From NCBI GenBank assembly GCA_017544725.1, contig JAFYDR010000317.1, positions 1-57,437 of the forward strand: a stretch of 57,437 nucleotides of DNA. Direction: 5' to 3'. Source of the DNA: Kiritimatiellia bacterium. Lineage in GTDB: Bacteria; Verrucomicrobiota; Kiritimatiellia; RFP12; UBA1067. Shown here piece after piece: positions 12,361-36,900 of this stretch. Below the pieces are notes generated by a model that was not told the origin of the DNA, searched no databases, and saw only the letters and a program-made list of their open reading frames with translations. The position numbers and the translations under genes are program-made. Numbering within the stretch: position 1 is the stretch's first letter; every line of letters starts with the position of its first letter.

Positions 12361-12898
12361 GGGTGCATCTGCGTATTTCACCGTCGTCTTTTGAAAGTGA
12401 AACAACAGAAACAATAACTTCGCTACGCGAAGTAGTGACGAGTGACGAATGACGAGTGACAGGCGGCGAAGCCGCCAGCTGAGAAGCCGAGGTACTTCGC
12501 ATAGTGACGAGTGAAAAGTGACGAGGAATTTCGCCACTCCTGTTAGTCCCGTCGGTCTCGCTAGTCCCGTGCGGTGGGCGCGGCACTTAGCCGAAGGGCA
12601 CTTAGCCACGCAGTGGCACTTAGTCCCGCAGGGATACTTAACCTAAAGCGGCACTTGCCACTTTCCCAACTACCGAACCACCCAACCACCGAAGCGTGAG
12701 CACCACGCCCGCGCCCGAATAGTCCGTCCCATAAAGGTTACGGGACAATAATACCAAATGATTGTCGCGGTAAAGGCAAAGGAGAGATGATGCACGGACC
12801 GGTTGGTCCGCGCACCTCTTTCAGTTGTTGTCTTCAAGTTGTTCTGGTTGTTTCCAAAATCCTCTCGTGCGTACGGAATGGGTAACGCTGATGCGTCC
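12361..12898. repeat. Inverted-end palindrome-rich element, enlarged copy 4 (538 bp)
   Basis: It begins GGGTGCATCTGCG, continues CACCGTCGTCTTTTGAAA as in the copy at 21811, and ends with a diverged inverted end (GATGCGTCC at 12890-12898). It contains the conserved hairpin ACGGACCGGTTGGTCCG (about 12795) and the TCCTCTCGTG segment. Other repeat words sit between the two halves: four 7-base units GTGACGA/ATGACGA at 12435-12462, the palindrome GGCGGCGAAGCCGCC at 12463-12477, and the mini-hairpin array at 12583-12650. No 9-bp flanking duplication is visible for this copy. Reading frames inside are repeat-derived. Confidence 0.65.
12583..12650. repeat. Mini-hairpin (GNA-triloop) array, small copy
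   Basis: Successive units CACTTA + GCC-GAA-GGG, CACTTA + GCCAC-GCA-GTGGC and CACTTA + GTCCC-GCA-GGGAT. Stems differ in sequence but stay paired, and the loop is always G-N-A. It is the same design as the array after the RAYT gene at 34901-35070. Confidence 0.7.
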
Positions 12899-22081: not shown

Positions 22082-22369
22082 TTGTAATCTTCTGATTCTG
22101 AATTCTGAACAAGAAGGGTAAGTTCGACCGCTACCTATTCGTGTCCCTATTCACAGCTTGTGGGTGTCAAAAACAACCTGCCCGCGCCCTCTTTACGGGG
22201 GCGCGGGCATAAACGACGACGCAAATACCTGCGCCACTTAAAAACTAAAGCAATTTCAAAACCTTTCACCCATCCCGTTCTTCAACCACGGAATGCAAGG
22301 AAAATTATGAGTTCTCCGAGAAACCATTCCGTAAGTTCCGTACATTCCGTGGCTTACCTCAACTGACAG
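22082..22369. repeat. Intergenic stretch after cysK with a class iii palindrome (22246-22350)
   Basis: Bases 22180-22212 hold the GC-rich inverted pair CCCGCGCCC/GGGCGCGGGC, a plausible stem. Bases 22246-22350 run from GCAATTTCAAAACC to CCGTGGCTTACC and contain ACCACGGAATGCA facing ACCATTCCGTAAGTTCCGT. The same words form the palindrome at 53263-53391. It directly follows the cysK stop on the minus strand and may act as a transcription end. Confidence 0.5.
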
Positions 22370-33213: not shown

Positions 33214-33876
33214 ATGCTGATTGACGAGATAAGGAGTGGAGAGACAGACACGCTTGAGTTCAAGCGTGATGTGCCGTCGGATAAGTCGCTAGCACTGGCG
33301 TTCAAATACATGAATTTCATCGAAGAATGGGGAAGCGGAATACCACGCATACAGGAGATGCTTTCTAAGGCAGGTTTGCCGCCATTGCATATTGAGAATA
33401 GCGGCATGGACATTCGGTTTACGGTTTGGCGAAATCCTGTTAAACGAGCGATTTCTTCGGAAGTTGCCCAGAGAGGCGCGAAAGTTGCCCCGATCAACAG
33501 ACAAGTTGCCCCGAAACCGGCGGAAGTTGCCCAGAGAGGCGCGAAAGTTGCCCCGATCAACAGACAAGTTGCCCCGAAATCGGCGGAAGTTGCCCAGAGA
33601 GGCGCGAAAGTTGCCCCGATCAACAGACAAGTTGCCCCGAAATCAACGGAAGTTGCCCAGAGGCTCAGTGGTAAGGGGCGGGCAGATGCGGTAAGGAATG
33701 CGGTTGCTGTCTTCGAGTGTCTAATGGCAAATAGTGAAGTTTCTGTCCCGAATATCGAAAGTAAAACACATCTTTCGAATGGTTCGGTTAAAAATGCGAT
33801 TCGTTTGTTGCGGCAGAACGGGATCATCAAGCGTGACGGTTCCAACCGTAGCGGAAGATGGGTGGTTTTGGTGTGA
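33214..33876 (+). CDS. Internally deleted AlbA/RecG-like transcriptional regulator with a repeat-expanded linker
   Basis: A 220-residue remnant. The N-terminus MLIDEIRSGETDTLEFKRDV is the start of an AlbA_2 (Schlafen-type) domain. After about residue 25 it jumps to FIEEWGSGIPRIQEMLSKAGLPP, which in full-length relatives (about 400 residues or more) lies far downstream. The AlbA core and ATPase-like middle are therefore missing. Residues about 83-150 are three copies of a 21-residue repeat (VAQRGAK-VAPINRQ-VAPKPAE) followed by a winged-helix end (VFECLMANSEVSVPNIESKTHLSNGSVKNAIRLLRQNGI). The frame is open, so a short DNA-binding protein could still be made, but loss of function by deletion is more likely. 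It ends 7 bases before the RAYT gene. Confidence 0.7.
   Translation: MLIDEIRSGETDTLEFKRDVPSDKSLALAFKYMNFIEEWGSGIPRIQEMLSKAGLPPLHIENSGMDIRFTVWRNPVKRAISSEVAQRGAKVAPINRQVAPKPAEVAQRGAKVAPINRQVAPKSAEVAQRGAKVAPINRQVAPKSTEVAQRLSGKGRADAVRNAVAVFECLMANSEVSVPNIESKTHLSNGSVKNAIRLLRQNGIIKRDGSNRSGRWVVLV
33460..33664 (+). repeat. 63-bp tandem repeat (3.2 copies) built of 21-bp subunits
   Basis: Units begin at 33460, 33523, 33586 and 33649 (partial) with GAAGTTGCCCAGAG. Each 63-bp unit contains three AAGTTGCCC words spaced 21 bases apart. Copies are almost identical (changes at CCGG/TCGG and GCGG/ACGG), so the expansion is recent. The period is a multiple of three and keeps the frame. Confidence 0.95.
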
Positions 33877-33883
33877 ACGAGGA

Positions 33884-34891
33884 ATGGAGCAGAATCTCAA
33901 ACTGATGAGTGCGACGGAACGGAAATCTGGAGGTTATGACTATACACGCGGAGGATCGATGTTCGTGACGATCCGTCTCGAACCTCGGCGTCCGTTGTTT
34001 GGTCATGTGGATCACGATCATGTGGTGCTTTCTGAAGCGGGAGAGATCGTGAAGCGTGACCTGCTGGAGTCAGCTGGACGTTTCAAGGGGTTCATCACGC
34101 TCCGCGCCTGGACAATCATGCCGGACCATGTGCATCTCCGCTTCACATGGCCGTCGGGCAACACCGACGCCGAGAAGATGATCGGCTCATTCATTGGTCG
34201 GTTCAAGCAGTATTCGAAACATCATATCTCTTGGCACAGGGATGGCATTTGGGAAGAAGGTTACCACAGTTTGATCTGCGCGGCGGAACGCTTGAACCGT
34301 ACTGTCGATGCCTACATCCTCAACAATCCCCGCAAGCGTTCTCTCCTACACAGTGATCCGTCATTGATGCGCGTAGTCGAACCGTTCCCGTTACTTGAGG
34401 ACGGTGGCCACGATCTGTGGCGGGCAGTTGGGAATACCGACCTGTTGAAGCGTGACCGTATTGTCTCGCTCCGTATTTCGCGGAAGGTCTCGCTGGATGC
34501 GCTGCCGCAGATTGTCGAAACATGCCGACGTGATGTCGTAGAGAATGGTTATCCGGTTGCCTCTACCTTCTTCTCGCCCGGCGAAAGAATGGTATTCAAG
34601 GCGTTGGCGGAAGAGAAGGATTTGCCGATAATCCGATTGTTGCCCACGTTTACGGAGTTGGCGTATCGGCCGCACGGGTTGGAACCTTCGCTCTTCGCGG
34701 AAAAGCGGTTGCTGATACTTTCGCGCATGGTCGATCCGGCCGCACCGACAATGCCCGGAGAACTGGTGAGGTTGAATTTCATCGCCGCAAATATCGCTCG
34801 GGCGAGAGAGGGCGGACGAACCGTGTATGTTACGATCCCGGGAAAGGATCGCACCCAAATTGTTTACGAGGAGCATCCGATGTCCCCATAG
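33884..34891 (+). CDS. REP-associated tyrosine transposase (RAYT) with an extra C-terminal domain
   Basis: A 335-residue Y1-transposase-family (IS200-like, TnpA_REP) protein. It has the family start GGYDYTRGGSMFVTIRL, the HUH metal motif as His82-Val-His84 in MPDHVHLRF, SFIGRFKQYSK, and the nucleophile Tyr144 in DAYILNNPRKR. RAYTs are single-copy genes that nick and move REP hairpins, as in E. coli. Here an array of mini-hairpins begins 10 bases after the stop codon. Residues about 185-335 are an added domain (FFSPGERMVFKALAEE, IRLLPTFTELAYRPHG, EKRLLILS) with an alternating beta/alpha pattern that could be Rossmann- or DprA-like. The ATG at 33884 follows GAGGA immediately; 33905 is an alternative start. 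All catalytic residues are present, so the protein may be active. Confidence 0.88.
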   Translation: MEQNLKLMSATERKSGGYDYTRGGSMFVTIRLEPRRPLFGHVDHDHVVLSEAGEIVKRDLLESAGRFKGFITLRAWTIMPDHVHLRFTWPSGNTDAEKMIGSFIGRFKQYSKHHISWHRDGIWEEGYHSLICAAERLNRTVDAYILNNPRKRSLLHSDPSLMRVVEPFPLLEDGGHDLWRAVGNTDLLKRDRIVSLRISRKVSLDALPQIVETCRRDVVENGYPVASTFFSPGERMVFKALAEEKDLPIIRLLPTFTELAYRPHGLEPSLFAEKRLLILSRMVDPAAPTMPGELVRLNFIAANIARAREGGRTVYVTIPGKDRTQIVYEEHPMSP

Positions 34892-34900
34892 CCGCTATTA

Positions 34901-35070
34901 GTCGCCGCTGCACGGCTTTAAGTGAGCTACGGTCATAAGTCGGGCTTCACCCGTAAGTTGGGATTCGTCCCTTAAGCCCACTTAGTCACGAAGCGACACT
35001 TAGCTACGAAGTAGCACTTAGCCCGTAGGGCACTTAACAACGCAGTGGTACTTAATTCCGTAGGGATAAT
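34901..35070. repeat. BIME-like array of GNA-triloop mini-hairpins next to the RAYT gene
   Basis: The right half has five units of about 20 bases: CTTA then a stem, a G-N-A loop and the matching stem. Examples are GCTAC-GAA-GTAGC, GCCC-GTA-GGGC, GTCAC-GAA-GCGAC, ACAAC-GCA-GTGGT and ATTCC-GTA-GGGAT. The left half (34918-34975) has three or four units in the opposite orientation (CGGG-CTTC-ACCCG, GGGA-TTCG-TCCC), so the halves converge at about 34976. Stem sequences differ but remain mostly paired. A shorter relative is at 36841-36900 and another at 12583-12650. Confidence 0.85.
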
Positions 35071-36837: not shown

Positions 36838-36900
36838 TACGTCGCCGCTGCTCGGCTCTAAGTGACCTACGGTCATCAGTCGGGCTTCGCCCCTTAAGTT
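36838..36900. repeat. Second partial copy of the RAYT-linked hairpin array
   Basis: The words GTCGCCGCTGC, CTAAGTGACCTACGGTCAT and CAGTCGGGCTTCGCCCCTTAAG repeat 34901-34965 closely and in the same orientation. With the array at 34901-35070, the copies flank the DUF2157/GDYXXLXY gene pair. Confidence 0.75.

Follow-up and report, generated by a model that had tools for sequence, protein, structure and literature searches.

The window analysed here, a stretch of 57,437 nt that forms contig C262 of a 3.8 Mb genome in 366 contigs (G000), carries a RAYT-type transposase gene followed at once by an array of mini-hairpins. Small palindromic repeats are usually regarded as extragenic and RAYT-linked, and the original prediction was that this RAYT recognizes and spreads the hairpins, with CTTA taking the place of GTAG. 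We asked whether the neighboring transposase is indeed the partner of the array and, if not, what kind of repeat the array represents.

CTTA arrays in the window and in the genome

The positions of the relevant features are shown in Table 1. The order of elements that had been described, a Y1 gene ending at 34891 and then a diverging array of CTTA tags with 4–5 bp stems and GNA loops, was confirmed by sequence and by scan. The array spans approximately 34900–35068, starts about 10 bp past the RAYT stop codon and is confined to the 3' flank of the gene. Its "−" units are on the left (34939, 34957) and its "+" units on the right (34981, 34999, 35017, 35033, 35051). This copy is degenerate: stems are perfect in two units (GCTAC/GTAGC and GCCC/GGGC), and the others have at least one mismatch. 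Folding of the entire array yielded z-scores of −3.4 (+ strand, DNA), −3.8 (− strand, DNA), and −2.8 (+ strand, RNA), so that neither one strand nor RNA is favored by the fold.

Table 1. Features of the window relevant to the CTTA arrays
Feature	Position	Strand	Remarks
CAACCTG + long GC hairpin REP	22174..22210	+	REP type flanking orthologs of this RAYT
RAYT-type Y1 (HUH) transposase gene	33884..34891	+	335 aa, apparently intact
Left arm of RAYT-adjacent array	34900..34963	−	Larger end unit GTCGCCGCTGCACGGC first; from sequence and scan
Right arm of RAYT-adjacent array	34977..35068	+	Five CTTA-stem-GNA-stem units of 16–18 bp; TRF period 18
Second array, degenerate	36838..36900	.	Left end same as in RAYT-adjacent array; from sequence, scan, and Pfam
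Third array	12583..12650	+	"+" units only; other small repeats adjoin

The two further arrays that had been pointed out, at 36838 and 12583, were both real by the scan, and the former lies directly past the stop codon of a GDYXXLXY-family gene, which is not a RAYT. GNA hairpins extend beyond the CTTA tag. The window has 19 perfect 5-bp C-GNA-G hairpins versus 2.3 expected from shuffling, and most of them bear other tags, for example GGCGGCGAAGCCGCCAGCTGA; several repeat families in this genome have GNA loops as a hallmark.

The unit consists of CTTA(G), three to four variable bases of the stem, C-GNA-G, the bases that pair with them, and CA. Within each of two arms, units follow one another head to tail, and the arms point away from each other on either side of a short palindromic center. 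A pattern that fixes the tag and the C-GNA-G loop only, and does not require pairing (CTTAGNNNCGNAGNNNCACTTA), had 96 matches in the genome versus 0 for the reversed control pattern. All three free pairs were complementary in 70 of these 96 units, while 1,000 reshufflings of the arms gave 17 on average and never more than 30. The proportion of perfect stems was also high in further sets of units (45 of 55, shuffled mean 4.5) and in relatives (165 of 173, versus 24). The scan and the covariation check proposed with the original prediction both came out in favor of the hairpin family, and the statement that stems differ yet mostly remain paired holds genome-wide, with two perfect units in the RAYT-adjacent copy. 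The 96 units have 31 different stems. G.T and A.C mismatches were about equally frequent in G000 (11 vs. 9), so that nothing points to selection acting on one strand as RNA. TTTA variants of the tag are present, and TTTA-type hairpins also occur in G000.

The predicted genome-wide spread was borne out by 61 array clusters, none of them inside a gene according to a codon model and lying among genes of all orientations, including divergent ones. These arrays are often part of mosaic repeats of 200–350 bp with a second inverted-repeat core, ATGAAATGGTTAAA...TTTAACCATTTCAT. Arrays were found in approximately 10 of the 162 genomes of the order, with a patchy distribution within genera, and most of the loci belong to Kiritimatiellae MAGs of goat and cattle gut or rumen. 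Matches in Bdellovibrio, Pelosinus, Aquiluna, and other bacteria outside the Kiritimatiellae were single in each case and were taken as chance. A viral origin was considered as well, but viral contigs had six single matches only. Concerted evolution within a genome was considered and set aside, as stem sets from different sites of one genome (similarity 0.43) resembled each other no more than those of arrays at one site compared across genomes (0.47). An Rfam search of the arrays gave no match at either threshold, and in the non-subscription literature searched we came across no description of repeats with a CTTA tag, nor of repeats of this kind from Kiritimatiellae. These data support the arrays as a real, dispersed family of REP/BIME-like mini-hairpins in which the 5' tag is constant, the loops are GNA, and the stems covary.

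The neighboring RAYT and its repeats

The product of the gene at 33884 matches PF01797 (Y1_Tnp) with 25.2 bits (cut-off 23), and its profile matches ISDra2 TnpA (2xm3, E = 4e-7) and TnpArep (4er8, E = 8e-5). H82, H84, and Y144 are invariant across 20 homologs; judging by the family pattern, Y144, the tyrosine of a YIxxN motif, would be the catalytic residue. In its HUH histidines and this tyrosine, the protein agrees with the Y1 HUH transposase that a REP/RAYT system requires. The scan of its own genome revealed no second close copy, and a search for spread on plasmids found a single distant plasmid match. Upstream, with its stop codon 7 bp before the RAYT ATG, there is a gene for a RecG-C-terminal-like/winged-helix protein (33214–33876) containing 3.3 nearly identical 63-bp tandem repeats that encode VAPINRQVAPK...

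Among the relatives searched, orthologs of this RAYT (67% identity) are present in G002, G004, and G019, and all three genomes are without CTTA arrays. Conversely, arrays occur without an ortholog in G001, G036, G039, G074, G076, G077, G100, and G154, where the Y1 homologs are at most remote (up to ~40% identical). Strict units numbered 56 in G001 (97% complete), 45 in G036, 48 in G074, and 58 in G076, although several of the compared genomes are incomplete MAGs, so that a gene may only seem to be absent. The expectation that genomes lacking this RAYT would lack the arrays is contradicted by these last four genomes, and the REP-like co-distribution of repeat and RAYT is not seen for the CTTA arrays.

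Other Y1 genes were also considered as partners. Among the approximately 25 Y1 loci examined in array-bearing genomes, a CTTA array lay within ~1.5 kb of only one intact gene, that of the window, and of one remnant, and the Y1 genes of array-bearing relatives are flanked by other repeats or by none. The remnant (L011, positions 1755–1910 of G000 contig C45) is the C-terminal part of a RAYT of another clade, about 150 bp from its array. Elsewhere, the RAYT lineages at L045 (G048), L050 (G015), and L054 (G036) each have their own distinct flanking REP-like repeat.

The orthologs in G002, G004, and G019 have a different repeat, CAACCTG plus a long hairpin, on both sides. This REP is also dispersed in the genome of the window (~7–9 copies, one of them at 22174), and a similar CAACCTG repeat accompanies a more distant homolog of the RAYT in G041 and no other Y1 locus tested. 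Because it flanks the RAYT orthologs, the CAACCTG hairpin appears from these comparisons to be a likelier cognate REP of the gene than the CTTA array.

If RAYT and array formed a REP/RAYT pair with a new type of hairpin, this would account for the array lying 10 bp past the RAYT stop codon, for the RAYT remnant near another array, and for the retention of H82, H84, and Y144. It would also agree with the processing of GTAG-tagged REPs with 5-bp stems by other TnpAREP enzymes (PMC8266576). The two RAYT loci near arrays compare with 0.26 expected (P ~0.03), which leaves a small probability for a link. Nevertheless, this model is strongly weakened, and we now regard it as improbable: ortholog and arrays are not co-distributed, CAACCTG REPs flank the orthologs on both sides and occur in the genome itself, the CTTA array is one-sided where a RAYT would be flanked by its own REPs on both sides, and a like array follows a non-RAYT gene 2 kb on. 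The many stems also differ from REPs, for which one stem sequence per family is usual. Of the idea of a REP/RAYT system of a new hairpin type, the REP/BIME-like mini-hairpin family stands and the pairing with this RAYT does not. The neighboring transposase is probably not the partner of the CTTA arrays, and that the two lie so close here is most likely a coincidence in a genome crowded with repeats.

In-frame arrays inside genes of relatives

Arrays are located inside genes in G039 and in the sister genus g13, and in the latter this applies to nearly all of them. The host genes, named here from their sequences and not from databases, encode an FGGY-type kinase, an nspC-like decarboxylase, a SUMF1/propeller protein with two sites, and one further protein. 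Among arrays of at least 90 bp, a frame was open in 26 of 26 in the relatives versus 6 of 18 in G000 and G001, and unit spacings were a multiple of three in 129 of 130 versus 32 of 51, respectively; independent in-gene sites are few (~5), and orthologous arrays are partly inherited. The consensus unit, CTT AGN NNC GNA GNN NCA, makes a stop codon impossible in that frame. Multi-unit arrays encode up to ~85 aa in low-complexity units of six residues, and for the SUMF1 protein the array-derived peptide LSREATLRGEAPLR is predicted. Bypass or splicing of the inserts is disfavored, as the frame is kept open.

The host loops are short in orthologs that lack an array, among them kinases of 84% identity and the SUMF1 orthologs of G000 and G001. 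This comparison shows that arrays inside genes were inserted or have expanded at such loops. The number of units varies at the same site, and stems share a small vocabulary. Two G081 paralogs both have GGTGAAA inverted repeats at site 1, and one of them has a CTTA array at site 2; at this second loop the paralogs (L255, L269) hold different repeat families, a difference that suggests recent independent insertion or replacement. In-frame arrays of like design, with GAA hairpins spaced by TTTAAAT and not CTTA, were seen at these host loops in G004 (L256, L270). Other short in-frame repeats (GGGTCGGATAGGGTC... and GGGGAACG...) occupy the same kinase loop in L239, L224, and L227 (G009, G029, and G050).

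Spread of the arrays and comparison with known systems

The reading that we consider probable is that of a dispersed, non-autonomous palindromic repeat of rumen Kiritimatiellae, with a CTTA tag and variable stems, which would be spread by an enzyme other than the adjacent RAYT. The array beside the RAYT would be one copy of this family, and the RAYT itself would go with the CAACCTG-hairpin REP. Units may move or multiply as single-strand hairpins on which an enzyme other than this RAYT would act in trans, and copies would persist where they are harmless, that is, between genes or, in the stop-free frame, in permissive loops. The data show that the repeats are dispersed, that their stems pair, that arrays are inserted relative to orthologs, and that the frame is kept; with no mobilizing enzyme found and no target duplication defined, mobility is inferred from the dispersal and the empty sites. 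A broader proposal is that of mobile mini-hairpin arrays outside the GTAG/CGTC super-families, stop-free in one frame, entering genes as readily as intergenic DNA and moved by a non-RAYT single-strand DNA enzyme; we advance it only tentatively.

A rather unlikely alternative needs no dedicated enzyme: arrays would lengthen and stay palindromic through replication slippage and template-switching of hairpins where repeats already reside, and gene conversion or recombination would spread them. The variable unit number at one site, the small common vocabulary of stems, and the near equality of G.T and A.C mismatches agree with it, but it does not easily explain about 60 unrelated loci per genome or the differing repeat types at one site of the two G081 paralogs. 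The number of units could reflect slippage at the site itself, and in the preferred reading of a repeat mobilized in trans, slippage and template switching may add to both unit number and stem perfection. That the hairpins act as RNA, as terminators, attenuators, or mRNA stabilizers at gene ends, is suggested by two of the three window arrays starting at most 10 bp from a stop codon. This is very improbable given that G000 arrays are not confined to 3' ends and also lie between divergent genes (8 of 48 classified arrays, compared with 2 divergent pairs among the 26 gene pairs of the window), that there is neither a G.U asymmetry nor an Rfam match, and that relatives have their arrays inside genes. 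We give equally little credit to the arrays of the sister genus being retained as useful flexible Ser/Ala/Pro/Gly linkers, with protein function as the reason. They are always in frame, in linker-like loops common to several species, but the pairing is kept (165/173 perfect) though synonymous and non-synonymous changes could break the hairpins, orthologs do without arrays, and in the genus of the window the arrays are outside genes.

One family is thus intergenic in one genus and in-gene in its sister genus, with the pairing kept in both, and the array-free orthologs make the entry and survival of palindromic repeats in coding sequence directly testable. The locus also calls for caution, in that the nearest transposase may not be the partner of a repeat in repeat-rich genomes.

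Like REP/BIME elements with their RAYT, the CTTA arrays have a short hairpin, a constant unpaired 5' tetranucleotide, and many dispersed copies, with pairs and clusters in opposite orientation, here in 61 intergenic clusters of one genome. They differ in that the stem sequence is not conserved, the units are 18-bp tandems, and no cognate RAYT was found, the one nearby going with another REP. GTAG and CGTC are the tags that define the REP super-families (PMC3733652); the tags here are CTTA and its TTTA variants. Because of the differing tag and the missing RAYT partner, the CTTA family was not filed as a member of the RAYT-REP systems. Group 3 GTAG REPs likewise have a small perfect stem and a short loop with a sequence requirement, with a stem of 8 bp and a loop of 3 nt in Stenotrophomonas and a stem of 5 bp in Marinomonas Mb (PMC8266576); unlike the CTTA arrays, they have one stem sequence per system and a TnpAREP partner shown experimentally (PMC8266576).

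Intragenic REPs are known in Opitutus terrae and Rickettsia conorii (PMC3733652). Together with the Rickettsia palindromic elements (RPE), those of O. terrae resemble the CTTA arrays in being palindromic and occurring both between genes and as in-frame translated inserts (PMC3733652, PMC10969869). In-frame palindromic inserts in unrelated genes were found in the relatives and not in the genome of the window. RPE-type repeats end in CGTC and most of their in-gene inserts are of 20–30 aa, whereas the CTTA arrays are multi-unit and longer; neither a CGTC end nor an RPE family sequence was seen in the arrays examined, and here, unlike in RPE, the repeat family at a given loop differs between lineages. 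PARCELs are also tandem palindromic coding repeats (PMC2996958), but they form amphipathic domains of 25 residues in ORFs without a known function, in contrast to the six-residue units found here in conserved enzymes and in non-coding DNA. On our best reading of these comparisons, the CTTA arrays would work like REP/BIME and Rickettsia palindromic elements and be new in the type of tag.
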